The notes under the pieces were generated by a model. It was given only the letters and a program-made list of their open reading frames with translations. It made no database searches and was not told the DNA's origin. A stretch of DNA of 64,000 bases. Origin: Hyphomicrobiales bacterium. Lineage in GTDB: Bacteria > Pseudomonadota > Alphaproteobacteria > Rhizobiales > Rhizobiaceae. Position 1 is the first letter of the stretch, and each line of letters starts with the position of its first letter. Of the stretch, positions 36,712-53,489 are shown piece by piece. The translations under genes and the position numbers were made by a program. Where the stretch lies: contig UCOA01000082.1 in NCBI GenBank assembly GCA_900474095.1, positions 1-64,000 on the forward strand, written 5' to 3'.

Positions 36712-37710
36712 GTGGCCATTGACATGGAACTTATCGTCGCCCTTGGCCTGATCGTCTTCAAGGTCGCGTTTCTGATTGCGATCCTGCTGCTCCTGCCCTT
36801 GCCGCTAACCTGGCTGGAGCGCAAGATCGCCGGACACATGCAGCAGCGGATGGGTCCGATGCGCGTGGGGTGGCACGGGCTGCTGCAGCCTGTAGCGGAC
36901 GGAATCAAGCTCTTAACCAAAGAGGACCACATTCCGGCCGAGGCCGACCGCTTCCTGTTCAAGCTGGCGCCAATCCTGGCGCTCGCCCCGCCCTTTGTAG
37001 TGTTCGTCGCGATCCCGTTCGGCGAAAGCGTCTCGGTCCTCGGGACCGAGATCACGCTCTACGTCTCCAACATGAACGTGGCCCTCCTTTTCGTCTTCGC
37101 GGTGATCGGGATCGAGGTCTATGGCGTCATCTTCGGCGGCTGGGCCGCCAACAGCAAATACGCTGTCCTGGGCAGCCTCAGGACCTGCGCGCAGATGATC
37201 AGCTACGAGATCCCGATGGGGTTCGCGGTCATCGGCGTGGTCATGTTGGCGCAATCCATGAGTCTGCTCGAGATCGTGAGGGCACAAGCCGATCTCTGGA
37301 ACATCGTCTACCAACCGGTCGGTTTCTTCGTGTTCTTCGTCGCCGGGCTGGCCGAGGCGCAGCGCATTCCCTTCGACCTGGCGGAGGCGGAAGGCGATCT
37401 GGGGGCCGGGTTCCATACCGAATACAGCGGTATTCGCTTTGCCTTCTTCATGATCAGCGAATATGCCATCGTGTTGCTGGTATCGGTCCTGGTGGTGATT
37501 CTGTTCTTCGGCGGCTGGAACGGTGTCCTGATCCCCCTGCCGCCGCTCCTCTGGTTTGCCCTCAAGGTCGCGTTCTTTGTCTATGTGTTTATCTGGTTCC
37601 GCTTCACTTTCCCCCGCTACCGCTACGACCAACTGATGGCGATCGGATGGAAAGTCTTGCTTCCTCTATCGATGGCGAACATAATCATCACCGGTATTGC
37701 TTTCGTTTAG
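36712..37710 (+). CDS. nuoH: NADH-quinone oxidoreductase subunit H
   Basis: A 332-aa inner-membrane subunit that, with NuoB and NuoD, shapes the quinone-binding cavity of complex I. Conserved segments include TWLERKIAGHMQQRMGPMRV, GWHGLLQPVADGIKLLTKED, GSLRTCAQMISYEIPMG and the acidic loop RIPFDLAEAEGDLGAGFHTE. Eight or so TM helices are apparent. The start is GTG at 36712, or ATG at 36724. It is followed 8 nt later by nuoI. It is transcribed towards, not with, the rest of the nuo genes. Confidence 0.95.
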   Translation: MAIDMELIVALGLIVFKVAFLIAILLLLPLPLTWLERKIAGHMQQRMGPMRVGWHGLLQPVADGIKLLTKEDHIPAEADRFLFKLAPILALAPPFVVFVAIPFGESVSVLGTEITLYVSNMNVALLFVFAVIGIEVYGVIFGGWAANSKYAVLGSLRTCAQMISYEIPMGFAVIGVVMLAQSMSLLEIVRAQADLWNIVYQPVGFFVFFVAGLAEAQRIPFDLAEAEGDLGAGFHTEYSGIRFAFFMISEYAIVLLVSVLVVILFFGGWNGVLIPLPPLLWFALKVAFFVYVFIWFRFTFPRYRYDQLMAIGWKVLLPLSMANIIITGIAFV

Positions 37711-37718
37711 GGGCGCCG

Positions 37719-38285
37719 ATGTCGCGCGCACGAGACACAATTGGGACATGGATCGGTTGGGCGTTCTTCGCCGATCTAGCGAACGGCTTGGCTCTGACTT
37801 TTGGCTACATGTTTTCCAAACCCGTTACCATGCAATATCCGGATCAGGAAAAATGGTTGCCCTACCCGCGTTACCGCGGCCATCACTTCCTAAAACGCGA
37901 CGAAGAGGGCGAGATCAAATGCGTGGCCTGCGAACTCTGTGCGCGGATCTGTCCCTGCGACTGCATCGAAGTCGTCCCTTACGAGGACGAAAAGGGCAAC
38001 CGTCGCCCGGCAAAATTCGAAATCGACACGGCTCGGTGCCTGTTCTGCGGGCTGTGCGAGGACGCGTGCCCGGCGGATGCGATCGCGCTTGGCCAGCAGT
38101 ACGAATTCTCGAGTTTTTCCTCAGCTGATCTGGTGATCGGTCGCGACGATCTGCTCGCTAAGCCGGGCAAGGCGGCAACCGGCGGCGGCGTGGTTGCCGC
38201 GCGCTTGAATACGAAGAAGGACGTGCTCGTCGAAACGAAAGAGACGCAGGGCTACAACTGGTGGCGGAATATCCGGAGAACGTGA
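37719..38285 (+). CDS. nuoI: NADH-quinone oxidoreductase subunit I
   Basis: A 188-aa peripheral-arm protein carrying clusters N6a and N6b. The two 4Fe-4S motifs are CVACELCARICP and CLFCGLCEDACP, followed by the usual Tyr/Phe-rich tail (TQGYNWWRNIRRT). The start is ATG, 8 nt after the nuoH stop. The same frame is open far upstream across nuoH, but that is an overlap artefact. The CBS gene follows after 45 nt. Confidence 0.95.
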   Translation: MSRARDTIGTWIGWAFFADLANGLALTFGYMFSKPVTMQYPDQEKWLPYPRYRGHHFLKRDEEGEIKCVACELCARICPCDCIEVVPYEDEKGNRRPAKFEIDTARCLFCGLCEDACPADAIALGQQYEFSSFSSADLVIGRDDLLAKPGKAATGGGVVAARLNTKKDVLVETKETQGYNWWRNIRRT

Positions 38286-38330: not shown

Positions 38331-38789
38331 ATGTTTGTCGGCGAAATCATGAAGAACAAGGGTGTCGGTGTCATCGCGGTCGCTCCCGATCAGACTATGG
38401 TGGAAGTCCTGAGGCTGTTTCGCGACAACAATATCGGCTTCGTCGTCGTCAGCCAATCGAACAGCGAATACCTGGGTACGCTGTCGGAGCGGGATTGCTG
38501 CAATGCGGTGGCGGAATATGGGGCCGAGGCGGCGATGATGCGAGTCGCGGACATTATGAACCGCAATGTGGCGACCTGTTCGACACGGGATTTGCTGCCC
38601 GTCGCGATGGGGATCATGACCCAGCGGCGTACGCGTCATGTGCTGGTCATGGATGATGACGACGTTGTCGGCGTGGTTAGCATCGGTGATGTGGTTAAAC
38701 ACAGGCTCGACGAAGCGCAGCGCACGGAGCAGGATCTGCAGGATTACATCTGCGGGACCAGGTATCACGACGTCGCCAGCTCGATGTGA
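38331..38789 (+). CDS. CBS-domain pair protein
   Basis: A 152-aa soluble protein made of two CBS motifs. One is at about residues 8-60 (VAPDQTMVEVLRLFRDNNIG, LGTLSERD), the other at about 75-130 (MNRNVATCSTRDLLPVAMGI, HVLVMDDDDVVGVVSIGD). CBS pairs bind adenine nucleotides or NAD(H). A GGAGG site precedes the ATG, and the gene lies 45 nt after nuoI, so it is probably co-transcribed with nuoHI. A role as a nucleotide sensor for complex I is plausible but unproven. It ends 55 nt from the convergent nuoG stop. Confidence 0.88.
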   Translation: MFVGEIMKNKGVGVIAVAPDQTMVEVLRLFRDNNIGFVVVSQSNSEYLGTLSERDCCNAVAEYGAEAAMMRVADIMNRNVATCSTRDLLPVAMGIMTQRRTRHVLVMDDDDVVGVVSIGDVVKHRLDEAQRTEQDLQDYICGTRYHDVASSM

Positions 38790-41451: not shown

Positions 41452-42717
41452 TCAGTGAAACGGACACCTGCGCTCCTCGATATGGGCGACGAATTCATGC
41501 TCGAAATGCTCCAGCGCGGCCCGCAAGCCCATGGCCGCCCCGTCGCCCAGAGCGCAGAACGTGTTGCCGAAAATGCCCTTGCAGAGCGTCTTCAGCTGTT
41601 CCAGATCGCCCGGCGCGCCCTGGCCCGCTTCGATCCGGCGCAGCACTTTCACGGCCCAGTTCAGCCCCTCGCGGCAAGGGGTGCACTTGCCGCAGGACTC
41701 GTGGTGGAAGAACTCGATGATCCGCGTCGCGACCTTGACCATGCAGGTCGAGTCGTCGATCACGATCACCCCGGCCGAGCCGAGCATGGAGCCGACAGCG
41801 GACAGCGAGTCGAAGTCCATTCCCACGTCCAGACCGCGCTCCGGGATCACCGGCGCCGAGACCCCGCCGGGGATCACCGCCTTGATCTTGCGCCCCGGCA
41901 GCGGCCCGCCGGCATACTCCTCGACCAGTTCACGCAACTGTATGCCCATCGGCAACTCGTAGAGGCCGGGTTTGCGCACCTGCCCGCTGAGGCAGTAGAG
42001 CTTCGGACCGGGGCTCTTCACCGGGCCGATGCCGCGGAACCACTCAAACCCCCGCACGACGATATGCGGCACGCAGACGAGCGTCTCGACGTTGTTGATC
42101 ACGGTCGGGCTGGCGTAGAGCCCCTCGACCGCCGGAAACGGCGGTTTCAGACGCGGCTGTGCCCGCTTGCCTTCGAGCGAATCGAGCATCGCGGTCTCCT
42201 CGCCGCAGATATAGGCGCCGGCGCCGCAATGAATGTGCACGATGAAACTGAAATCCGAACCCAGAATTCGCCGTCCCAGATAACCCTTTGCATGTGCCTC
42301 CCCGATCGCCTGCTCCAGCCGATGGATCGCCAGCACGTATTCCCCACGGATGTAGACATAGGCAGTTTCCGCTCCAATCGCGTAGGCGCTGATCGCCATG
42401 CCCTCGATCAGTTGGTGCGGGTCACGCTCCATGAGGATCCGGTCCTTGAAGGTGCCCGGCTCACCCTCATCGGCGTTGCAGCAGAGATATTTCGGCTTGC
42501 CGGCGCGTTTCGGCACGAAGCTCCATTTCATGCCCGTCGGGAATCCGGCCCCGCCGCGGCCGCGCAGGTTCGATGACTTGACGATATCGATGATTTCGTC
42601 GGGCGTGTGTTCCCCAAGGGCCTTGGCCAGCGCCCGGTAGCCGCCGCCGGCCTCATAGTTCGCAAGCAGATGACCATCCGGCGCGTCCACGTTTCTGAGA
42701 AGAACCGGTTCGAACAT
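41452..42717 (-). CDS. nuoF: NADH-quinone oxidoreductase subunit F
   Basis: A 421-aa subunit that binds FMN and NADH and carries cluster N3. The NADH/FMN region reads NLRGRGGAGFPTGMKWSFVP (about residues 55-74), with CCNADEGEPGTFKDR after it. The 4Fe-4S motif is ESCGKCTPCREGL near residue 350. It lies 30 nt before nuoG and 4 nt after nuoE. Length and motifs are canonical. Confidence 0.96.
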   Translation of the reverse strand: MFEPVLLRNVDAPDGHLLANYEAGGGYRALAKALGEHTPDEIIDIVKSSNLRGRGGAGFPTGMKWSFVPKRAGKPKYLCCNADEGEPGTFKDRILMERDPHQLIEGMAISAYAIGAETAYVYIRGEYVLAIHRLEQAIGEAHAKGYLGRRILGSDFSFIVHIHCGAGAYICGEETAMLDSLEGKRAQPRLKPPFPAVEGLYASPTVINNVETLVCVPHIVVRGFEWFRGIGPVKSPGPKLYCLSGQVRKPGLYELPMGIQLRELVEEYAGGPLPGRKIKAVIPGGVSAPVIPERGLDVGMDFDSLSAVGSMLGSAGVIVIDDSTCMVKVATRIIEFFHHESCGKCTPCREGLNWAVKVLRRIEAGQGAPGDLEQLKTLCKGIFGNTFCALGDGAAMGLRAALEHFEHEFVAHIEERRCPFH

Positions 42718-42721
42718 GGCG

Positions 42722-43243
42722 CTACTCTCCCGGCGGTGCTGCGGGGGCGAGAACGGGACCAGTCGCTTGCCGCGCCACTGCCCTCAGCCTGTCCAGCAGA
42801 GCGTCGACCCGCGCAAAGTCGAGGTCGCCGTGATAATCGTCGCCGACTTGCATCACCGGAGCCATCTCGCAAGCACCCAGGCATTCGACGGTCGAAAGCG
42901 TGAACAGCCCCTCGGGAGTCGTGCCGCCCTTCGTTATCCCCAGCATTGCCTCGAGGTGCTTCAGCAACGCCTCGGATCCACGCAGCATGCACGATACATT
43001 GTCGCAGAGTTGCAGATGAAACATCCCAACCGGCTCGGTATGGAAGAGAGTGTAGAAAGTCGCCAGCTCGTAAACCCAGATCCGCTCGACGTTGAGGATG
43101 TCGGCGACTTCTTCCAATACCGGGCCGGGCAGATGGCCATGTTCCTTCTGCGCGATCAGAAGTGCCGGCATGATTGCTGAGCGCTGGTCCGGATACCGCG
43201 CCGCCGCCGCTTCGATCTTTTCGCGCATGTTCATCGCGTCCAA
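42722..43243 (-). CDS. nuoE: NADH-quinone oxidoreductase subunit E
   Basis: A 173-aa thioredoxin-fold subunit with 2Fe-2S cluster N1a. The ligand pattern C-x4-C (CDNVSC) and CLGAC is present. Starts MDAMNMREKIEAAAARYPDQ; MNMREK is an equally good start 9 nt later. It follows nuoD by 8 nt, and with NuoF and NuoG forms the NADH dehydrogenase module. Confidence 0.95.
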   Translation of the reverse strand: MDAMNMREKIEAAAARYPDQRSAIMPALLIAQKEHGHLPGPVLEEVADILNVERIWVYELATFYTLFHTEPVGMFHLQLCDNVSCMLRGSEALLKHLEAMLGITKGGTTPEGLFTLSTVECLGACEMAPVMQVGDDYHGDLDFARVDALLDRLRAVARQATGPVLAPAAPPGE

Positions 43244-43251
43244 ATCCCCTG

Positions 43252-44466
43252 CTACTTGTCCACCTCGGCCATCACCGGGTCGAGACTGCCCAGCACGGCG
43301 ATCACGTCCGCCAGATAATGCGCATTACTCGTCCCGAACAGTCCCTGAAGGTTGACGAACGACGGTGCCCGCACCTTCATACGGAACGGTTTTTCCGACC
43401 CGTCGCTGATGATATAAAACCCGAGCTCGCCCTTTGGTGCCTCTATTGCCGAATAGACCTCGCCCTTGGGTACCTTGAAGCCATAGGCCGATAGGTCGAA
43501 GTGCTGGATCAGCGCCTCCATCGAGCAATGGACCTTGTCCTTGTCCACGGGGAAAGCGATCGTCGGCATGTCGATCTGGAACGCCCCCCCGGGCATCTGG
43601 TCGAGGCATTGTTCGATGATCCGGACGCTCTCGCGCATCTCTTCGACCCGGCATTGCCAGCGCGCGTAGCAATCGCCCTCGTCGCGGATGATGACGTTGA
43701 AGTCGAGCCGGTCATAGATCTCGTAGGGATCATCGCGGCGAATGTCCCAATCAACGCCTGAGGCCCGCAGATTCGGGCCGCTCAGGCCAAGATCGATACC
43801 ATCCTCGGCGGAGATCACGCCGATCCCCTGCGTGCGCTTCAGGAACACGCGATTCTTCTCAAGCAGCCGCTCGTAGTCGCGAATCCGGTTCGGAAAGATG
43901 TCGCAGAATTCCCTGATCTTGGCGAGGCACCCGTCAGGCAGGTCCTCGCGCACGCCGCCGACCCGGCAGAAGGACGTATGCATGCGCGCGCCGGTGATCA
44001 TTTCCATAAGATCCATGATCATTTCGCGCTCGCGCATGGCATAAAGCAACGCAGTCATTGCACCCAGGTCCATCGGCAGCGCTCCGGTGATCAGGACATG
44101 GCCGGAGATCCGTGCCAACTCGGCCATCAGCACGCGGATATACTGCGCTCGGATCGGCGCTTTGATGCCGAGGAGCTTCTCCACCGCCAGCGCGAAGGCC
44201 AGGTTGTTCGACGGCGGGCAAAGGTAGTCGAGGCGGTCCGTCAGCGGGAAAATCTGGGTGTAGGTGAAACTCTCGGCCAATTTTTCTGTGCCGCGGTGGA
44301 GGTAGCCGATATGTGGATCTACGCGTGTGACATACTCGCCGTCCAGCTCGAGGACGAGCCGCAGCACCCCATGCGTGCTGGGATGCTGGGGGCCGAGATT
44401 GAGAAGCACCTCCTTGGTGTTGAGCGCTTCGCCTTCCGGCCTGCTCAATTCCGTGACTTCGGTCAT
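43252..44466 (-). CDS. nuoD: NADH-quinone oxidoreductase subunit D
   Basis: A 404-aa 49-kDa-type subunit of the quinone module. It contains LNLGPQHPSTHGVLRLVLEL, HIGYLHRGTEKLAES, FCRVGGVREDLPDG and the C-terminal GSLDPVMAEVDK. These include the His and Tyr region lining the quinone site. NuoC and NuoD are separate genes here, unlike the E. coli NuoCD fusion. Confidence 0.96.
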   Translation of the reverse strand: MTEVTELSRPEGEALNTKEVLLNLGPQHPSTHGVLRLVLELDGEYVTRVDPHIGYLHRGTEKLAESFTYTQIFPLTDRLDYLCPPSNNLAFALAVEKLLGIKAPIRAQYIRVLMAELARISGHVLITGALPMDLGAMTALLYAMREREMIMDLMEMITGARMHTSFCRVGGVREDLPDGCLAKIREFCDIFPNRIRDYERLLEKNRVFLKRTQGIGVISAEDGIDLGLSGPNLRASGVDWDIRRDDPYEIYDRLDFNVIIRDEGDCYARWQCRVEEMRESVRIIEQCLDQMPGGAFQIDMPTIAFPVDKDKVHCSMEALIQHFDLSAYGFKVPKGEVYSAIEAPKGELGFYIISDGSEKPFRMKVRAPSFVNLQGLFGTSNAHYLADVIAVLGSLDPVMAEVDK

Positions 44467-44496: not shown

Positions 44497-45033
44497 TTAT
44501 GGAATGTTCCTGGTGGCAAGATCCGGCAGCGTCGGCGGCGGACCTTCGGCACCGAAGGGGTTCAACTTGTCTTTGTAGCCCCGCAAGGGAAAGTCCTTGC
44601 GCTGGGGAAAGCCCTCGAACCCTTCCCACATGTAGATCCGGCGCAGATCGGGGTGGCCCTCGAACCTTATCCCATACATGTCCCACGCTTCGCGCTCATG
44701 CCAATTGGCGGTCCGCCAGACACCCGTAACCGACGGAACCCGCGGCGGATCGCCAAGGCGGCACTTGATGCGAACGCGCCATTTGTTCGGCAGCGAATAG
44801 AGGTGGTATACGGCCTCGTAGCGCGGCGCCTCGGGGTAATGATCGACGCCGCAGATGTCTGACAGGAAATTGAACCGCAGAGCCGGGTGCTCCTTTAGAA
44901 ACTGGCAAAGCTCAACGATCATTTCCGGCGGAACCGCGAAGGCATGGACACCATGAGCAAAGCCAAGATCGTCGATTGCCTCGCCGAATCGCTCCGCAAT
45001 CGGACCGCGGTTGAGGGGCGTCTCTACGCTCAT
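44497..45033 (-). CDS. nuoC: NADH-quinone oxidoreductase subunit C
   Basis: A 178-aa 30-kDa-type subunit containing [40 protein letters not shown] and [11 protein letters not shown] followed by [10 protein letters not shown], the diagnostic C-terminal block. Its start overlaps the nuoB stop by 4 nt. Connects the quinone module proteins NuoB and NuoD. Confidence 0.95.
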
Positions 45034-45533
45034 GACACCGCGACCCGGTCTAGAGGAGTCCCCGCCAGCGCCCGAGATTTGTTGATCTTCTCCTGAAGCA
45101 GAAGGAAGCCATGCATCAGCGCCTCGGGCCGCGGCGGACAGCCGGGCACATGCACATCCACGGGCACGAAGGTTTCTGCCCCTTGTACCACGGCGTAGGT
45201 GTTGTAGACCCCGCCCGAGATAGCGCAGGTGCCCATCGCGATAACCCAGCGCGGCTCCGGCATCTGGTCATAGAGCCTGCGCACGACCGGAGCGAATTTT
45301 CGCGTCACCGTGCCGGCGATGATCATCACGTCGGACTGGCGCGGCGATGGTCGGAACACCACGCCGAACCGGTCGAGATCGTAGCGTGCACAACCGGCGG
45401 AGATCATCTCGATGGCACAGCAGGCAATACCGAAGGTCTCGGGCCACAGAGCCGATTTTCGGCTCCAGTTGATAACACTCTCGGCCGTGGTGAACAGCAC
45501 GCTGTCGCGGATCGCATTGTTTACGCCTCCCAT
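45030..45533 (-). CDS. nuoB: NADH-quinone oxidoreductase subunit B
   Basis: A 167-aa subunit holding the terminal cluster N2. The cluster ligands are visible as [14 protein letters not shown] (tandem Cys), [10 protein letters not shown] and [13 protein letters not shown]. It delivers electrons to quinone at the NuoB-NuoD-NuoH interface. Its start overlaps the 3' end of nuoA by 13 nt. Confidence 0.96.
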
Positions 45534-45886
45534 TCCAGCGCTCCCTTCAGCCAGGCGTAGGCGAAGCCCACGAGCAGCAGCAATATGAAGACGAACATCT
45601 CGACATAACCGACCAGCCCGATGTCTTTCAGGACGACGGCCCAGGGAAAGAGGAACATCGTTTCGACATCAAAGACCACCAACAGGATCGCAAGTATAAA
45701 GAATTGCACCCTGAAACGGCCCCCGGCGGCCTCGCCAGCTGGGTCCATCCCGCATTCATAAGGCATGTTCTTTTCAGGATAGGGATTGGACGGGCGCAGG
45801 AGCGAGGAGACAAACAGCGTTACCCCTGCCACCAGAACAATTCCGGCGGCCATGACAAGAACCGGGAGGAACTCCGTTGCAGCCAT
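45521..45886 (-). CDS. nuoA: NADH-quinone oxidoreductase subunit A
   Basis: A 121-aa, three-helix membrane subunit with the conserved loop [20 protein letters not shown] and [17 protein letters not shown]. It is preceded by a 155-nt gap after nuoN, the longest gap in the minus-strand nuo operon. An internal promoter there is possible. Confidence 0.95.
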
Positions 45887-46041: not shown

Positions 46042-47481
46042 TCAGTCGCCAAAAACCGAATATTGGGCAAGCCTCAGAAACCACGCCGGAAATAGGCCAA
46101 TGCCGATGGTGCCCAAGGCGGTGAAGGCGAGCGTGGTGCGCACCATGGGCGTCAGCGCCGGGTCGAACACCCTCTCCGGCTCGCGCATGTAGATCACCAT
46201 GACAATGCGAATGTAAAAATAGGCTGCGACGGCGCTCAGCAGCACTGCTATCACCGCCAGCATGACAAAACCTCGCTCGACGAGCGCGACAAGCACGTAG
46301 AACTTAGCGAAGAACCCGGCGGTCGGCGGAATGCCGGCGAGCGAGAACAGATAGAGCAGCATCAGAAGCGCGAGCCCGGGATGAGACTTGGCGAAGCCCG
46401 CATAGTCGTCGATGACCTCGCCCGAGAAATCGCCGTTCCGCATCATGATCACGGCGGCGAAAATGCCGAGATTCATGAAAGAGTAGATCAACAGGTAGAG
46501 CATCACGCTGGCGATTCCATCGGCACCGCCGGCCACTACGCCGAAGATGGCGAAACCGGCATGGGCGATGCTGGAATAGGCGAGCAGGCGCTTGAAATTA
46601 TCCTGCACCAGCGCGACGAAACTACCGAGCGCCATTGTAACCACCGCAATGACGGCGACGATGATCCAGACGTTTGAGGCTGCGACCAGCGGGTTGAGAA
46701 ACACCCGCAGGATGACCGCGAAACCAGCAGCCTTGGCGCCGACCGACATGAAGGCGGTGATCGTCGTCGGCGCGCCTTCATAGACGTCTGGCACCCACAT
46801 GTGAAACGGCACCGCGCCGACCTTGAAGACCAGCCCTGCGACGATGAAGACCACAGCCAGCAGCAATCCGGGATCAAGCGGATCGCCAGTCACCGCCGCA
46901 GTCATCCCGTCCAGTTGCGTCGTACCGGTGAGCCCGTAAATCAGCGAAACGCCGTAGAGGAAAATCCCGGTCGAAACCGCCCCAAGAATCACGTATTTTA
47001 GCGCGGCTTCGTTCGACCGCCGCTCTCGCCGCAGGAAGCCGGTCAGCACATAGGTGCACAGCACCATCAGTTCGAGACCGACATAGATCGATAGCAGATC
47101 GATCGCCGAGGCCATGATCATCATTCCCGACAGGGCGAAGAGTATCAGGACATAGTATTCGCTGCTTCCGATCCCTTCGATTTCGGCATATTTCCGCGAG
47201 AGGAGGAATGTCAGAACAGTGGCTAAGTAGAATACGAACTTGAAGAAGACCGCGAAGCGGTCGGCGACGAACATGCCTGTGTAGGCCGGCCGCACCTCGC
47301 TCGCCAGCATGAGTGTCCCCAAGGCGGCCATCAGCACGATCGCGACGGAAGCCCAGACGAGCAAATGTTCCTGCCCCTTGCGCACAAACTGTCCCAGGAT
47401 CAGCAGGATGCAGGCGCCGATGATCACCACAATCTCGGGCACGCTTGCGAGAGCGGACTGGAAAAGTGCTGCGGCGGTCAT
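46042..47481 (-). CDS. nuoN: NADH-quinone oxidoreductase subunit N
   Basis: A 479-aa antiporter-like proton-channel subunit. Key charged residues are in place: the TM5 Glu (YVGLELMVLCTYVL) and the TM8 Lys after HMWVPDVYEGAPTTITAFMS (VGAKAAGF). Start MTAAALFQSALASVPEIVVI, overlapping the nuoM stop by 4 nt. NuoN sits next to NuoK in the membrane arm. Here nuoN precedes nuoA in transcription, an order different from the standard nuoA-N. Confidence 0.94.
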   Translation of the reverse strand: MTAAALFQSALASVPEIVVIIGACILLILGQFVRKGQEHLLVWASVAIVLMAALGTLMLASEVRPAYTGMFVADRFAVFFKFVFYLATVLTFLLSRKYAEIEGIGSSEYYVLILFALSGMMIMASAIDLLSIYVGLELMVLCTYVLTGFLRRERRSNEAALKYVILGAVSTGIFLYGVSLIYGLTGTTQLDGMTAAVTGDPLDPGLLLAVVFIVAGLVFKVGAVPFHMWVPDVYEGAPTTITAFMSVGAKAAGFAVILRVFLNPLVAASNVWIIVAVIAVVTMALGSFVALVQDNFKRLLAYSSIAHAGFAIFGVVAGGADGIASVMLYLLIYSFMNLGIFAAVIMMRNGDFSGEVIDDYAGFAKSHPGLALLMLLYLFSLAGIPPTAGFFAKFYVLVALVERGFVMLAVIAVLLSAVAAYFYIRIVMVIYMREPERVFDPALTPMVRTTLAFTALGTIGIGLFPAWFLRLAQYSVFGD

Positions 47482-48950
47482 TGGCCGCTCCCTTTGTGCA
47501 CCTGCGTCAGCAGATGCTTCACCGAGGCGTCGATGATGTTGAGAAAGGGTTTTGGATAGAGCCCGATCCAAACCACGAGGACGGCCAGCGGCAGAATCGC
47601 AACCATCTCGCGGGTGTTGACGTCGCGTATCTTAAACCGGGCGCCGACGCTGGCTGGACCAAGCGCGACTTTCCTATACATGCCAAGCAGATAAGCCGCG
47701 CCCAGCAATGCACCCAAAACAGCCGCCACGCCGGCGGCCAGGTTGGCCGCAAACCCGCCCGATAGCACAAGCAACTCGCCCACGAACGAATTCGTTCCCG
47801 GCAGCGCCATCGAAGACAAGGTAAACAGCGCCAGAAACGTGGTATAGATTGGCGCCGCCTTCATCAGGCCGCCATAGTCGGCAATGCTGCGCGTATGTGT
47901 CCGCTCGTAGATCAGGCCGACGAACAGGAACAACGCGCCGGTTGTTACCCCATGATTGAACATTTGCAGGATGGCGCCCTCAAGACCGCGGAGGTTCAGC
48001 GCAAAAATCCCGAGCGTCACGAAGCCCATGTGACTAATGCTGGAATAGGCTACCAGCTTCTTCAGGTCGTCCTGTGCCAGCGCAAGCAACCCGCCATAGA
48101 CGATTGCAAGCGCCGAAAGCCAAAGCATCGGCGTCGAATAATACACTGATGCCTCCGGCAGCATCGGCAGCGAGAACCGCAGGAAGCCATAAGCGCCCAT
48201 CTTCAGGAGCACTCCGGCGAGAATGATGCTGCCGGCCGTCGGCGCCTGTACATGGGCGTCCGGCAGCCAAGTATGGACTGGAACCATCGGCACCTTGACC
48301 GCAAAGGCGATCAGGAAGGCGATGAACAGCCAGGACTGGACCCGGAAAGGCAAATCTTGCGCTGTCAAGGCGAGGATGTCGAAGGTCTCGCCGCCGTGGA
48401 AGTAGAGCACGATGACACCGATCAGGAACAACAGGCTGCCCGCCAGCGTGTAGAGGAAGAACTTGAACGCCGCATAGACCCGGCCTTCGCCGCCCCAGAT
48501 GCCGATGATCAGGTACATCGGGATCAGCATCGCCTCCCAGAAGACGTAGAACAGGAACAGGTCGAGCGCGCAAAACACTCCGAGCATCAGCGCCTGCATG
48601 ACCAGCAGACTGACCATGAACGACTTCACCTTGTGGTCGATCGCGACCCATGAGGCGAGCACACAGATCAGGCCCAACAGCGCTGTCAAGAACACGAAGG
48701 GCGCGCTTATCCCGTCGATGCCAAGCGCATATGTGATCCCGAGCGCGGGAACCCACAGCCGCGTCTCGGTGAACTGCATCTCGTGGGTCGTAGTGTCAAA
48801 GCCTGCCAGCATGGCGACGCAGGAAAGAAGGTCGATGACGGTGACGCCCAGTGCAGTCCATCGCACCGCATCGTCGCTGCGAAGAAGCATCAGAACCGCT
48901 GCGCCGACGACGGGCGTGAAGACGATGAGACTGAGTAGCGGGAACTCCAT
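47478..48950 (-). CDS. nuoM: NADH-quinone oxidoreductase subunit M
   Basis: A 490-aa antiporter-like proton-channel subunit. TM5 Glu is in LFYVFWEAMLIPMYLIIGIW. TM8 Lys follows HTWLPDAHVQAPTAGSIILA (GVLLKMGAYGF). The NuoM-type Glu replacing Lys in TM12 is in LFVGLIYERTHTRSI. Start MEFPLLSLIVFTPVVGAAVL. The frame is open upstream into nuoL, but that is shadow sequence. It clearly groups with NuoM rather than NuoL. Confidence 0.95.
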   Translation of the reverse strand: MEFPLLSLIVFTPVVGAAVLMLLRSDDAVRWTALGVTVIDLLSCVAMLAGFDTTTHEMQFTETRLWVPALGITYALGIDGISAPFVFLTALLGLICVLASWVAIDHKVKSFMVSLLVMQALMLGVFCALDLFLFYVFWEAMLIPMYLIIGIWGGEGRVYAAFKFFLYTLAGSLLFLIGVIVLYFHGGETFDILALTAQDLPFRVQSWLFIAFLIAFAVKVPMVPVHTWLPDAHVQAPTAGSIILAGVLLKMGAYGFLRFSLPMLPEASVYYSTPMLWLSALAIVYGGLLALAQDDLKKLVAYSSISHMGFVTLGIFALNLRGLEGAILQMFNHGVTTGALFLFVGLIYERTHTRSIADYGGLMKAAPIYTTFLALFTLSSMALPGTNSFVGELLVLSGGFAANLAAGVAAVLGALLGAAYLLGMYRKVALGPASVGARFKIRDVNTREMVAILPLAVLVVWIGLYPKPFLNIIDASVKHLLTQVHKGSGQ

Positions 48951-48958
48951 CGCACCTC

Positions 48959-50719
48959 CTAGCGCCACGCCACGGCAAAGACGACGGTTGCTGCGATCAC
49001 ACCGACAATCATTGCCAGCACGTAATGGGTCACAACGCCGGTCTGGAGCCGCCGCAAAGCTCCGCCGCCGCGCAGGATCAAACGAGCGACGCCGTTCACA
49101 ACGGCGTCCACGCCGGTGAGATCGACCCGCATCCCGACGCGTGCCGCCCCGCGCAGGAAGGGCAGCGCCGTGGTCTCGGACACGTCGCTCACCGCTTTCT
49201 CGTAGCGCGCCAGTGGTTTTTCGGCGATCCACATGAACACCCGGGCGCCCTTGCGATAGAACCAGTCGGTGTCAAGGCTGATCGTGTTTTCGGGGTCGAG
49301 AGACCTGAGGAACAGCACGAATCCTAGTGCGGTGAACATCAGCACGCCAAGGCTCTCGGTGACATGGACGCCCGTGTACGGTTGGAAGTCGACCGGATAA
49401 GGCAGCAAAGCGTAAAGCAACTGGGGGAACACCCCGATCACGATGCAAAGCACCGCCGCCATGCCCATAGCAACCAGCATGTTGCGAGGAGGTTCCCGCG
49501 CCTCCAGCCCCCGATCCGTTCCGAAGAACATGTAGTACGGGAGCTTGAGCCCGGTGTGCAAGAAAGTCCCTGACGACGCCATCGTCAGCGCCAGAACCAC
49601 CATCGCGCGGTGATCCTGTCCGGCGGCGGCCACCACCATTGACTTCGTGACGAATCCTGAGAAGAACGGAAATGCCGAAATCGCGAAGGCTCCAATCATG
49701 TAGAGGGCCACGGTCAGCGGCATGGTTTTGTAGAGCCCGCCAAGCTCGGTGAGCTTGCGCCGCCCCGTGACGTAGATCACCGCTCCTGCGCCCATAAAGA
49801 GGAGCGCCTTGTAGAGGATATGCGCGAAGGCATGCCCGGTGGCCCCATTCACTGCCATCTCGGTCCCGATGCCGACGCCCACGACCATGTAGCCCACTTG
49901 GCTGACGATGTGATAGGCGAGCAGCCGTCGGCAGTCGTTCTCCAGCACCGCGTAGATCACGCCGTAGAGCGCCATCGCAGTGCCCAGCCAAACGAGAAGC
50001 TCGGTGCCCGGAAACGCACGGGCCAGCACATAGACGGCGGTCTTGGTGGTGAAGGCGCTCATGAACACCGCGCCGGTGACGGTCGCTTCCGGGTAAGCAT
50101 CGGTCAGCCAGGCGTTGAGCGGAGGCACGGCGGCATTGAGCAGGAAGCCGGCCAGGATGAGGTAGGCCGCAATGCCCATCACGCCCTCGATGGGGCCGAA
50201 GAGAAGCGAACCTGAGGCGAACCCGTGGAGAATGACGCCACCGAGCAGAACGACGCCGCCGGTGATGTGAACCATGAGGTAGCGGAAGCCGGCGGCGACC
50301 GCCTGCCGACCGCCCTGGGCGAAGACCAGATAGGCAGAGGCAAACGCCATGCCTTCCCAAAAAAGGTAAAGGGTCAGGTAGTCGCCGGCGAAAACCACGC
50401 CAAGCGCGCTGCCGACGTAGACGAACGCAGCGACGTGCTGGCCGGCGCGCGTCAGGTGCAGCGCGTAGACCATTCCGACCAGCGCCATGATGGTGAAAAC
50501 GGTGGCGAACACGATGCTCAGCTTGTCCACTTTCGCGATCATGATTTCCTGCCCGAAAAACTGCGCCGCGCCGTAGCTGCCTGGCTGCATCGCGAGCACG
50601 GCCAGGATCGCAAGTAGCGGGATCAGCAGCAGATAGGCCTTGCGGATTGCGCCCTTCAGGAGGGGGATTGGCAGGGCGCCGAGAATGAACAGCAGGGCGG
50701 GATGGACGAAGTCAGTCAT
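48959..50719 (-). CDS. nuoL: NuoL-like distal proton-channel subunit with long lateral-helix region
   Basis: A 586-aa Mrp/NuoL-type membrane protein. TM5 Glu is in LTLYLFWEGMAFASAYLVF. TM8 Lys follows NAWLTDAYPEATVTGAVFMS (AFTTKTAVY). TM12 Lys is in AHILYKALLFMGAG. After TM15, a linker from DTDWFYRKGARVF to RRLQTG, then a final helix (YVLAMIVGVIAATVVFAVAW), matches the lateral amphipathic helix and TM16 of NuoL. That linker is about 76 residues from WFY to LQTG, roughly 20 more than I remember for ordinary alphaproteobacterial NuoL. It is often annotated as an antiporter subunit D. It overlaps the 84-aa gene by 8 nt. Confidence 0.85.
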   Translation of the reverse strand: MTDFVHPALLFILGALPIPLLKGAIRKAYLLLIPLLAILAVLAMQPGSYGAAQFFGQEIMIAKVDKLSIVFATVFTIMALVGMVYALHLTRAGQHVAAFVYVGSALGVVFAGDYLTLYLFWEGMAFASAYLVFAQGGRQAVAAGFRYLMVHITGGVVLLGGVILHGFASGSLLFGPIEGVMGIAAYLILAGFLLNAAVPPLNAWLTDAYPEATVTGAVFMSAFTTKTAVYVLARAFPGTELLVWLGTAMALYGVIYAVLENDCRRLLAYHIVSQVGYMVVGVGIGTEMAVNGATGHAFAHILYKALLFMGAGAVIYVTGRRKLTELGGLYKTMPLTVALYMIGAFAISAFPFFSGFVTKSMVVAAAGQDHRAMVVLALTMASSGTFLHTGLKLPYYMFFGTDRGLEAREPPRNMLVAMGMAAVLCIVIGVFPQLLYALLPYPVDFQPYTGVHVTESLGVLMFTALGFVLFLRSLDPENTISLDTDWFYRKGARVFMWIAEKPLARYEKAVSDVSETTALPFLRGAARVGMRVDLTGVDAVVNGVARLILRGGGALRRLQTGVVTHYVLAMIVGVIAATVVFAVAWR

Positions 50720-50966
50720 AATGGTCCTCGCGCCGCATGAGCCCACCCTGATGGCCGAGGAACTTGGAAACGAAAATCAGCAGCACGCATGACAAGAAGC
50801 CGTAGGCGGCCGACCAGCCCGGAAGCCAATCCCACATGTATTCGGCGTGTTCGCGAGAGACCAGCAAGTCGGCGATGACGATCAGAACAAGCACCAGATA
50901 GAACAGCCGGCGCCGCTGGTTCGCAAATTCTTCTTCACCAAAGAAACCGACCACGCGCTTGATCAT
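50712..50966 (-). CDS. 84-aa two-helix membrane protein inside the nuo operon
   Basis: A small protein starting MIKRVVGFFGEEEFANQRRR. It has two hydrophobic segments (LFYLVLVLIVIADLLVS and YGFLSCVLLIFVSKFLG) separated by a Trp-rich loop (YMWDWLPGWSAA), and a charged C-terminus. It overlaps both neighbours (8 nt with the NuoL-like gene, 4 nt with the extra antiporter-like gene), so it is translationally embedded between two pump subunits. I recognise no family. Position suggests an accessory membrane-arm subunit or assembly factor. Confidence 0.75.
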   Translation of the reverse strand: MIKRVVGFFGEEEFANQRRRLFYLVLVLIVIADLLVSREHAEYMWDWLPGWSAAYGFLSCVLLIFVSKFLGHQGGLMRREDHYD

Positions 50967-52417
50967 CTGACAACTCCTTCCGCCAAGGTGAGGAAATAGT
51001 CGGGGAAGATGCCCATCGACAACGACAGGACGGCGGTCGCAACCAGCGGGATCGTCATCAGTGGAATTTCACGGATCACCGTCGCCGGGCTCTCCTGCGC
51101 CTCCGTCCCGAAAAAGGCGACATAGCTGACCGGCAGGAAGTACGCGGCGTTCAGAACCGAGCTCGCCAGAAGCACGATCAGGAACGCGATTTCTCCCGCC
51201 TCTACCGAGCCCCACGCCAGATACCACTTGCTGACGAAGCCCCCGGTCGGTGGCACCCCAATCATGCTGAGCGAGCCGACGAAGAAAGCGCCCATCGTCC
51301 AGGGCAGTCTCCGGCCGATACCTGCCATGTCGCTGATGTTGCGCTTGCCAGACGCGCAATAGATCGACCCCGCGCAAAAAAAGAGCGTGATCTTGGAGAA
51401 CGCATGAGCCGCAATGTGGATGATCCCGCCGACCATCGCAACCGGCGACAGCAGGACCGCGCCGAGCAGGATGTATGAGAGTTGGCTGACCGTGGAATAG
51501 GCGAGCCGTGCCTTTAGGTCGTCTCGCGTCAGGGCGTAGACGGACGCCATCAGGATTGTGAACGAGACCAGATAAGCCGTGGCGATGCCCAGCCCCAACC
51601 CGTCCACCAGACCCGTGCCGAAAACATGGAACACCACCCGCAGTACGCAGAACACGCCCATTTTTACCACGGCCACCGCATGCAGGAGTGCACTGACGGG
51701 TGTCGGCGCCACCATCGCGGCAGGCAGCCAGGCATGCATCGGCATCACCGCAGCCTTGGCGAACCCGAAGAGGTAGCAGAAATAGACGACCGTCAGCATC
51801 GGCGCCGAGGCATCGACCCGCGAGAGCAGCCCTCCCGCCATAAAATCGAGCGACCCCGCAATGTGGTAGGTCAACGCCAGCGCGGCGAGAAGCACGCTTT
51901 TCGACGCGCCCATTAAATAGACGAGATACTTGCGGCTGCCCCTCCATCCCTCTTCGTCCTCGTGGTGGTAAACGAGCGGATAGGTCACGAGGCTGAGTAT
52001 CTCGTAGAAGATCACCAGCGTGAACAGATTGGCGGCGAAGGCACCTCCCACCGCCGCCGCAAGGCTGGTGGCGAAACAAGCGAAGAACCGGGTCTGCGCA
52101 TGTTCGTTCAAATGCCGCATGTAGCCGATGGAATAGATGGCCGCCACGATCCACAAAAGCGACGAGACGGTGGCAAATACCATGCCGAGCGCATCGACCC
52201 GGAAAGCGAAGTCAATGCCAGGCAAAATCTCGAACAGGCGCAAATCGACCGTGCCGCCCGCCAGCACCGTGGGCGCCATCGAGGCGACTATTGCGAACAT
52301 GGCGACCGCAGCCAACGGCGAGACGACATCGCGGAGTTTCTCGCGGTTGTTCAAAAGGAGAATCGCAAAGGCGGCCAGGCCTGCGACGGCGACGGCGAGC
52401 AGCGGCCGGATCGACAT
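50963..52417 (-). CDS. fourth antiporter-like subunit (MrpD/NuoM-type) of the complex I cassette
   Basis: A 484-aa membrane protein of the NuoL/M/N-MrpD superfamily with about 14 TM helices. The proton-path residues are intact: TM5 Glu (VIFYEILSLVTYPLVYH), TM7 Lys (YLMGASKSVLLAAL), TM8 Lys after HAWLPAAMVAPTPVSALLHA (VAVVKMGVF), and TM12 Lys (AHAFSKITLFFCAG). It lacks the NuoL lateral helix and ends shortly after TM14. L, M and N are each present elsewhere, so this is an additional pump-type subunit, not a replacement. It lies between nuoK and the 84-aa gene, with overlapping or near-overlapping ends. Confidence 0.88.
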   Translation of the reverse strand: MSIRPLLAVAVAGLAAFAILLLNNREKLRDVVSPLAAVAMFAIVASMAPTVLAGGTVDLRLFEILPGIDFAFRVDALGMVFATVSSLLWIVAAIYSIGYMRHLNEHAQTRFFACFATSLAAAVGGAFAANLFTLVIFYEILSLVTYPLVYHHEDEEGWRGSRKYLVYLMGASKSVLLAALALTYHIAGSLDFMAGGLLSRVDASAPMLTVVYFCYLFGFAKAAVMPMHAWLPAAMVAPTPVSALLHAVAVVKMGVFCVLRVVFHVFGTGLVDGLGLGIATAYLVSFTILMASVYALTRDDLKARLAYSTVSQLSYILLGAVLLSPVAMVGGIIHIAAHAFSKITLFFCAGSIYCASGKRNISDMAGIGRRLPWTMGAFFVGSLSMIGVPPTGGFVSKWYLAWGSVEAGEIAFLIVLLASSVLNAAYFLPVSYVAFFGTEAQESPATVIREIPLMTIPLVATAVLSLSMGIFPDYFLTLAEGVVR

Positions 52418-52433
52418 CACCGGGTCCAAGCCG

Positions 52434-52739
52434 CTATCCTTTCATCATGGTCACTTCGTCGACCTTGAGGGTGGATTTATTCCTCACAAGGGCGACCAAG
52501 ATACCGAGAGCGACGGCAACCTCCGCCGCAGTGATTGCGATGACGAAGATCGCGAAGATCTGCCCGCGGAAATCGCCGAAGTAACGCCCGAAAGCAATGA
52601 AATTGATATTGACGGAGTTAAGCAGCAGTTCGAGCGACATCAGCACGACCAGAATATTGCGCCTGAGCAATACGCCTGCTGCTCCGATCACGAACAGGAT
52701 CACTCCGAACAATATGTACCACGAGAGAGGCACCATCAC
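52434..52739 (-). CDS. nuoK: NADH-quinone oxidoreductase subunit K
   Basis: A 101-aa three-helix subunit (MnhC-like). The two buried glutamates needed for proton transfer are visible in [19 protein letters not shown] and [19 protein letters not shown]. Its start overlaps the nuoJ stop by 4 nt; the extra antiporter-like gene starts about 17 nt after its stop. Confidence 0.95.
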
Positions 52740-53236
52740 CCCTGCTCCTTGCGCGCCAGCACGATGGCGCCGACCAGAGCTGCCAGCAGGATGACGGAGG
52801 CGACTTCAAACGGCAGCAGATAGTCGGCGAAAAGTGTCGTACTGAGTTGCCTGACCTGATCTCCACCTGCCGTCGCGGCGGGCTCCATGACCGAAAAGCG
52901 GTCGCTCCAGAGCACGAGGACAAGCATCTCGACCCCAAGCAGGAAGAGGAGCACCAGAGCCGGCAGGTTGCCGCCCGGCACGAAGCGTTGCAACACCGCT
53001 TCGCGCACATCGATCATCATGATTACGAACAGGAACAGGACCATGATCGCGCCGACATAGACGAAGATCTGGATGACCGCGAGAAACGGCGCCTCGAGCA
53101 GGACGAAGACTGCGGAGATCTGCAGGAAACACGCCATCAGCGCCAATGCGCTGTGAACCGGATTCCGCGCCACGACCACCGTCAGGGCCGTGATCACGGC
53201 CACCGTAGCGAACAGAAGAAAGAACCCCTGATCCAT
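52736..53236 (-). CDS. nuoJ: NADH-quinone oxidoreductase subunit J
   Basis: A 166-aa, five-helix membrane subunit. Start [20 protein letters not shown], followed by [20 protein letters not shown], then [20 protein letters not shown], which is the conserved TM3 with its pi-bulge region. It is the first gene of the 13-gene minus-strand nuo operon, so the main promoter should lie in 53237-53420. Confidence 0.95.
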
Positions 53237-53489
53237 CGACCCCGACCCTCCGACGCAAACCGTCACTCGGCGCGAGACGGCCGGATTTGAGATAGCGCCG
53301 CACTCACAAATTGTGCCCTAATATCGGATATTTCACAAGATTATTGTCATGGTCGAGACAGAGCCAGGGGCGGCCCGCATGGGGCGAGGTCCGATCTTTG
53401 ATAAACATAGCGAGCGTCGGTGAGATTCAGTGTGGCTCTTGGGGAGTGGGACCAAGAACTGTTCAAAATCAATGGTAGCTGTGAGATCG

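Follow-up and report, generated by a model that had tools for sequence, protein, structure and literature searches.

A second complex I gene cluster of rhizobia with two antiporter-type proteins and a small protein in the place of NuoL

The nuo2 locus and its genes

We analysed a 64,000-nucleotide stretch of DNA from a Hyphomicrobiales bacterium (the window, on contig C76 of a 6.4 Mb genome), which carries a second cluster of genes for the NADH:quinone oxidoreductase known as complex I (nuo2). Genes on the minus strand run from 53266 to 38845 in the order nuoJ, nuoK, a gene for a protein of 484 amino acids (X), a gene for a small protein of 84 amino acids (S), a gene for a protein of 586 amino acids with some likeness to NuoL (L-like), nuoM, nuoN and nuoA to nuoG. 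The plus strand carries nuoH, nuoI and a gene for a CBS-domain protein, convergent with the minus-strand nuo genes. The operon has no nuoL; X, S and L-like stand in its stead, and the cluster is that of the rhizobial green complex I, an already known second complex I.

X and L-like scored 196 and 143 bits, respectively, against the NuoL family NDH_I_L, both far under its cut-off of 407.5, and the sole protein of the genome over that cut-off is encoded in a canonical nuo cluster on contig C190. Both X and L-like exceed the cut-offs of NCBIfam families named as 'subunit D' of a monovalent cation/H+ or Na+/H+ antiporter. A preliminary description of the locus, made from the letters of the DNA, had placed four antiporter-type proteins in one operon at the positions listed below, and four PF00361 proteins were confirmed there, on the minus strand. 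However, it had taken them for NuoL, NuoM and NuoN plus one extra subunit. We reject this assignment, as neither X nor L-like comes near the NuoL cut-off and both belong to antiporter families. The gene for S (50712-50966) had been missed.

The 13 other canonical subunits (NuoA to NuoK, NuoM and NuoN) were all found, NuoA and NuoJ under their curated cut-offs and NuoJ over that of Pfam, and all genes from nuoJ to nuoG are assigned, either to Nuo subunits or to X, S and L-like. PF00361 has 11 matches in the genome: four here, three in the canonical cluster, and two in each of two Mrp-like clusters. A standard complex I is also encoded, with nuoE to nuoN in the part of contig C190 that was covered and nuoA to nuoD beyond it. 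The order J K X S L M N A B C D E F G, with H and I on the opposite strand, differs from that of the C190 cluster. The features of the locus are listed here with their profile scores (TM, transmembrane helix).

36712..37710, plus strand: nuoH2; NCBIfam NuoH 361 bits, cut-off 305
37719..38285, plus strand: nuoI2; TIGR01971 164 bits, cut-off 113, scored from 37800; start inferred from a 567-base relative in locus L070
38331..38789, plus strand: CBS-domain protein neighbouring nuoH-I; Pfam CBS 74.7 bits; place conserved in loci L069, L070 and L071
38845..41421, minus strand: nuoG2; TIGR01973 493 bits, cut-off 470
41452..42717, minus strand: nuoF2; TIGR01959 643 bits, cut-off 559
42722..43243, minus strand: nuoE2; TIGR01958 189 bits, cut-off 142, scored from 43228
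43252..44466, minus strand: nuoD2; TIGR01962 619 bits, cut-off 459
44497..45033, minus strand: nuoC2; TIGR01961 158.5 bits, cut-off 122
45030..45533, minus strand: nuoB2; TIGR01957 243 bits, cut-off 143
45521..45886, minus strand: nuoA2; NCBIfam NuoA 109 bits, under the cut-off of 163; position conserved
46042..47481, minus strand: nuoN2, an ordinary NuoN by its tree position; TIGR01770 515 bits, cut-off 333; TM5 Glu, TM7 Lys, TM12 Lys
47478..48950, minus strand: nuoM2, an ordinary NuoM by its tree position; TIGR01972 643 bits, cut-off 264; TM5 Glu, TM7 Lys, TM12 Glu
48959..50719, minus strand: L-like subunit, 586 amino acids (MrpD2 of green complex I, by its lateral helix); PRK12668 791 bits, cut-off 564
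50712..50966, minus strand: S, small protein of 84 amino acids; overlaps both neighbours, X at its end and L-like at its start; by eye, it has two hydrophobic stretches
50963..52417, minus strand: X, 484 amino acids (MrpD1 of green complex I); PRK08375 838 bits, cut-off 663; without a lateral helix
52434..52739, minus strand: nuoK2; NCBIfam NuoK 107.5 bits, cut-off 57; two conserved membrane Glu seen by eye
52736..53266, minus strand: nuoJ2; NCBIfam NuoJ 136 bits, under the cut-off of 154; Pfam Oxidored_q3 136 bits, cut-off 33

The CBS-domain protein (38331..38789) is a possible regulator. Its gene also adjoins nuoH-I in Sinorhizobium, Ensifer and Phyllobacterium (L069-L071), and a match to it lies upstream of nuoJ in five contig loci (L072, L073, L075, L113 and L142). 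Boxes of the FixK/FNR type gave seven one-mismatch matches against a chance expectation of 5.0, and none of these falls in 27834-62118, so none is near the nuo genes.

Relatives of X, S and L-like

In a tree of 111 antiporter-like proteins, the products of nuoM2 and nuoN2 joined NuoM and NuoN, whereas X and L-like grouped with relatives encoded in Mrp-type clusters apart from nuo genes (stand-alone), neither of them inside NuoL. X joined stand-alone X proteins on the NuoL/MrpA side, with a support of 93 in the Shimodaira-Hasegawa-like approximate likelihood ratio test (SH-aLRT) when the long row of L056 was left out and of 8 when it was included. L-like was placed among stand-alone L-like proteins, beside L045 (SH-aLRT 97), and a second tree with the helix columns removed repeated this placement (SH-aLRT 98) beside L016, which comes from the same genome as L045. 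The trees come from fast IQ-TREE runs with SH-aLRT values and without bootstrapping. Some genomes occur twice among the 62 stand-alone loci, of which 52 distinct ones entered the second tree.

The S gene overlaps those of X and L-like by a few bases each. Its product matches no NCBIfam family and none of Pfam over cut-off, and relatives annotated 'hypothetical protein' occupy the same place in plasmids of Ensifer adhaerens and Phyllobacterium zundukense (L070, L071). With a profile of 16 S proteins, of which 13 come from stand-alone loci, S was detected in 34 of 36 stand-alone loci and in 96 of 97 nuo2 loci; a contig end cuts the remaining one (L149). Since X-S-L occurs both in separate Mrp-type clusters of alphaproteobacteria and in nuo clusters, it is, judged by homology, a module common to the antiporter-type cluster and green complex I. 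A grouping of X with stand-alone Mrp antiporters, together with its absence from purified complex I, had been named in the preliminary description as an argument against its reading; X does group with such relatives, but it adjoins S and L-like in 81 of 83 nuo-context loci, and in the other two (L079 and L149) the contig ends first.

We kept the best 80 of 161 relatives from the scan of genome contigs, which are the closest (84-92% identical). In each of the 80, L-like sits in a nuo cluster with nuoM next after it, and several of these clusters are truncated by contig ends. They belong to Rhizobium, Sinorhizobium, Ensifer, Mesorhizobium, Phyllobacterium, Microvirga and related genera. Matches at E up to 1e-100 were obtained in 99 plasmid records; among these, pSymA of S. 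meliloti 1021 has the same cluster, with an L-like protein 86.5% identical. The L-like family is present in 23 of 199 genomes of the window's own family, in nuo clusters in 12 (the window and all 11 fetched) and in Mrp-type clusters in 11 (all 11 fetched). Two other genomes listed under the same genus gave no L-like match at the threshold used, so the nuo2 cluster is patchily distributed.

Across the class, 87 of 385 genomes have the L-like family over its cut-off. We picked 27 loci by hand across the score range (L039-L058 and L062-L068, six of them under the family cut-off), of which three are nuo clusters and 24 are separate. An X-like gene adjoins L-like in all 27, weakly in L057, and 23 of the 24 separate clusters have a third antiporter-like gene. 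Proteins from three separate clusters carry MbhD and MbhE domains, an MnhB domain, or all three.

Two loci, L040 and L041, are green-type clusters of a different family that branch outside the rhizobial ones; their genomes (G181 and G354) are small and incomplete (1.4 and 1.6 Mb, 88 and 86% complete). In L198 and L202 nuoA to nuoG do not follow nuoN in the stretch covered, so that nuoJ to nuoN with X-S-L stand apart. The nuoG2 gene lies elsewhere, on the same contig in the genome of L202 and on another contig in that of L198, and the cluster can therefore be split.

Architecture and proton path

Measured from W to the G of the QTG motif, L-like has 75 residues in all 98 nuo2 sequences, compared to 55 in 29 of 30 canonical NuoL proteins and 45 in one. 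These 98 sequences are mostly rhizobial, with some genomes present twice from two collections and with L040 and L041 more distant. The preliminary description had estimated about 20 residues more than NuoL, and this estimate of a non-canonical length is upheld, its figure of 76 being the inclusive count W486-G561. Among 60 stand-alone L-like tails, a count that excludes two proteins, the strict motif gives 56 in 38 and 58 in two and is unreadable in 20. The nuo2 segment thus exceeds that of canonical NuoL by 20 residues and that of the stand-alone relatives by 18-19. Two looser motifs gave more scattered readings. With the first, 71 of 87 nuo2 L-like sequences had 74 residues and the remaining 16 had fewer; with the second, 86 of 87 had 75 and one had 65. 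Among 50 stand-alone proteins, the second motif read 57 residues in 22 and other lengths between 46 and 74 in 23, and gave no reading in five. From W to the C-terminus there are 101-102 residues in nuo2 L-like (98 of 98), 80-85 in the 30 canonical NuoL and 74-80 in 60 of 62 stand-alone proteins. The whole gain relative to NuoL lies inside the segment, while relative to stand-alone proteins 18-19 residues lie inside it and about six after it. By alignment with NuoL, the lengthened segment would be the lateral helix.

The end of the protein following this segment is also of the NuoL type. A profile of canonical NuoL C-termini gave nuo2 L-like ends (87) a median of 21.6 bits and a minimum of 8.5, and stand-alone ends (45 scored of 50) a median of -1.0 and a maximum of 7.2. 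With a profile made from stand-alone ends the scores were reversed; that profile is derived from those same tails, and only the canonical-NuoL profile is independent. The consensus of the nuo2 L-like ends agrees with canonical NuoL at 13 of 24 positions, and that of the stand-alone ends at two. Because its last helix resembles NuoL and not its stand-alone relatives, L-like looks chimeric. The simplest reading would be recombination between an antiporter-type gene and nuoL in which the complex I anchor of NuoL was kept, although convergence might also have given rise to such a helix.

X, M2 and N2 retain the TM5 Glu, the TM7 Lys and the distal Lys (Glu in NuoM) in the nine, nine and eight rows checked, and X retains its key Glu, Lys and His. 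In L-like, Asn195 occupies the position of the TM7 Lys, and Asn is found there in 98 of 98 nuo2 sequences. The key residues, described earlier as intact in all four proteins, are therefore intact in three. Stand-alone relatives (52 distinct) have Lys at this position in 46 cases, Asn in four, Ser in one and Leu in one. Asn also occurs in the nearest stand-alone relative of L-like, and the Lys may therefore have been lost before the move into complex I. In Paracoccus, purified K232Q Nqo13 (ND4) was unable to catalyse NADH:ubiquinone oxidoreduction and the Glu-Lys pair is called essential for catalysis; the same authors regard the role of the transverse helix as structural only (PMC9802314; papers cited by such numbers are represented here by passages from them). 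By eye, X and L-like of the window both lack the Asp that NuoL has just after its distal Lys, the proposed exit residue D400 of Escherichia coli (PMC9271201).

From these comparisons, the cluster very probably encodes a complete NADH:quinone oxidoreductase in which X-S-L replaces NuoL, with the arm, strap and cap proposed here. The membrane arm would run N-M-X-L-like, with X in the place of NuoL and L-like at the tip. The lateral helix of L-like would reach back over X, M and N and anchor at the inner end as that of NuoL does, its 20 additional residues, about 30 angstrom long as a helix, spanning the added subunit; this number would fit one more subunit under the strap. Electron transfer from NADH to quinone would power the N, M and X modules at least, and L-like would most likely act as strap and cap at the end of the arm, with no more than a modified path for protons. 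An arm of this kind, with a strap lengthened by about one subunit, is likely to exist.

Several observations weigh against parts of this picture. The AlphaFold model of L-like is poor (mean predicted local distance difference test 53.6, residues 438-586 under 50) and does not support a helix length in space. The insertion in Manganitrophaceae is 26 residues, with a similar length for NuoL of the 2M complex I, not 20 (PMC9040806), which makes the fit for an added subunit somewhat short. Shuffled ends reached up to 8.8 bits with the NuoL profile, and the lowest nuo2 score, 8.5, is just under that. An approximately unbiased test did not reject an alternative with all stand-alone proteins as one group (p 0.385, on a tree without five stand-alone L-like rows that have long branches and without one row of the outgroup), so the trees favour a transfer from antiporter to complex I but do not show it. 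In the 12 rows checked L-like keeps the TM5 Glu, TM8 Lys, TM10 Lys and distal (TM12) Lys and could conduct protons by another residue pairing; moreover, the essential role of the Lys was shown in the middle subunit ND4, not in a distal subunit.

As to proton number, we tentatively propose, at close to an even chance, that only three pumping modules are complete and that the chimeric distal L-like, an antiporter core with no TM7 Lys joined to the lateral-helix anchor of NuoL, forms a terminal cap together with S. If so, the long membrane arm would change stability, leak or regulation and not the number of protons. It is also possible, at somewhat less than an even chance, that all four antiporter-like subunits pump and that five protons are moved per NADH, as proposed for 2M complex I and for complexes I with extra subunits, where 5 to 6 protons or ions were suggested for one to two such subunits (PMC9040806). 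Four antiporter-like subunits in one operon do not alone imply a fifth proton, although they agree with one, as do the segment longer by 20 residues and the Glu and three Lys retained in TM5, TM8, TM10 and TM12. Set against this are the Asn found throughout the 98 sequences in the place of a Lys whose equivalent is essential in Paracoccus ND4 (PMC9802314), and the absence of a measured stoichiometry of green complex I from the literature passages covered. Because L-like lacks that Lys, for which other lysines might substitute, a fifth proton seems, by analogy, slightly improbable, and four protons per NADH would be slightly favoured over five. The same loss weakens the earlier suggestion of one more proton per NADH.

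It is unlikely that X-S-L instead acts as an antiporter of cations and protons attached to complex I, so that Na+ or K+ is transported rather than an added proton. The NCBIfam names of X and L-like and their relatives in Mrp-type clusters, three of which have MbhD, MbhE or MnhB domains, would suit such a role, but the genes from nuoJ to nuoG do not include one for MnhB. A 2M complex I with duplicated NuoM, the type of cassette (Chadwick 2018) favoured in the preliminary description, would share the four antiporter-like subunits and the longer helix segment, both of which are borne out for this accessory complex I. We reject it as highly improbable since the cluster has a single NuoM and no NuoL, and since by NCBIfam families and tree the extra proteins belong elsewhere; the families, the tree and PMC9040806 point to green complex I, with two MrpD-like subunits for NuoL.

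For the question of whether each added antiporter-like subunit gains complex I one proton, green complex I is a natural test, as its L-like subunit keeps the strap but lacks the Lys essential in ND4, and as the enzyme occurs in tractable rhizobia such as S. meliloti 1021. The cassette itself is known; the lost Lys, the anchor and S make its stoichiometry testable, and there is a link to nitrogen-fixing symbiosis (PMC7415380).

Comparison with known complexes and antiporters

Green complex I is described in passages of PMC9040806 and PMC7415380, and is also met in PMC5419562. As in the window, two MrpD-like subunits replace NuoL, and the complex is a second one beside the standard complex I, in Rhizobium and Sinorhizobium. 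The second operon was reported in about 70 alphaproteobacteria and is upregulated in symbiosis (PMC7415380). We found nothing that separates the window cluster from green complex I as described in those passages of PMC9040806 and PMC7415380. The passages on green complex I do not mention the S gene, the loss of the TM7 Lys, the NuoL-type anchor or the length relative to stand-alone proteins; the founding papers are outside this comparison.

Complex_I_3 of Ca. Manganitrophaceae has two MrpD-like subunits that are closest to those of rhizobial green complex I. However, a second NuoM brings its pumping subunits to five, and its lateral helix carries a 26-residue insertion beyond the rhizobial form (PMC9040806). 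The 2M complex I (Chadwick 2018; PMC6606698, PMC7300363, PMC9040806) likewise has four antiporter-like subunits and a lengthened lateral helix, but it keeps NuoL and adds a second NuoM, whereas the window cluster has one NuoM and no NuoL.

The stand-alone Mrp-type clusters of the PRK08375 and PRK12668 families have homologous X, S and L-like genes in the same order. They differ in that 23 of 24 have a third antiporter-like gene and none is a nuo cluster, the segment is of approximately canonical length, and the last helix is of another kind. Stand-alone Mrp genes form an operon of their own without redox subunits, while the operon in the window holds nuoA-G, nuoJ, nuoK, nuoM and nuoN. Finally, canonical complex I has 14 subunits including NuoL, and the window cluster has the other 13 only.

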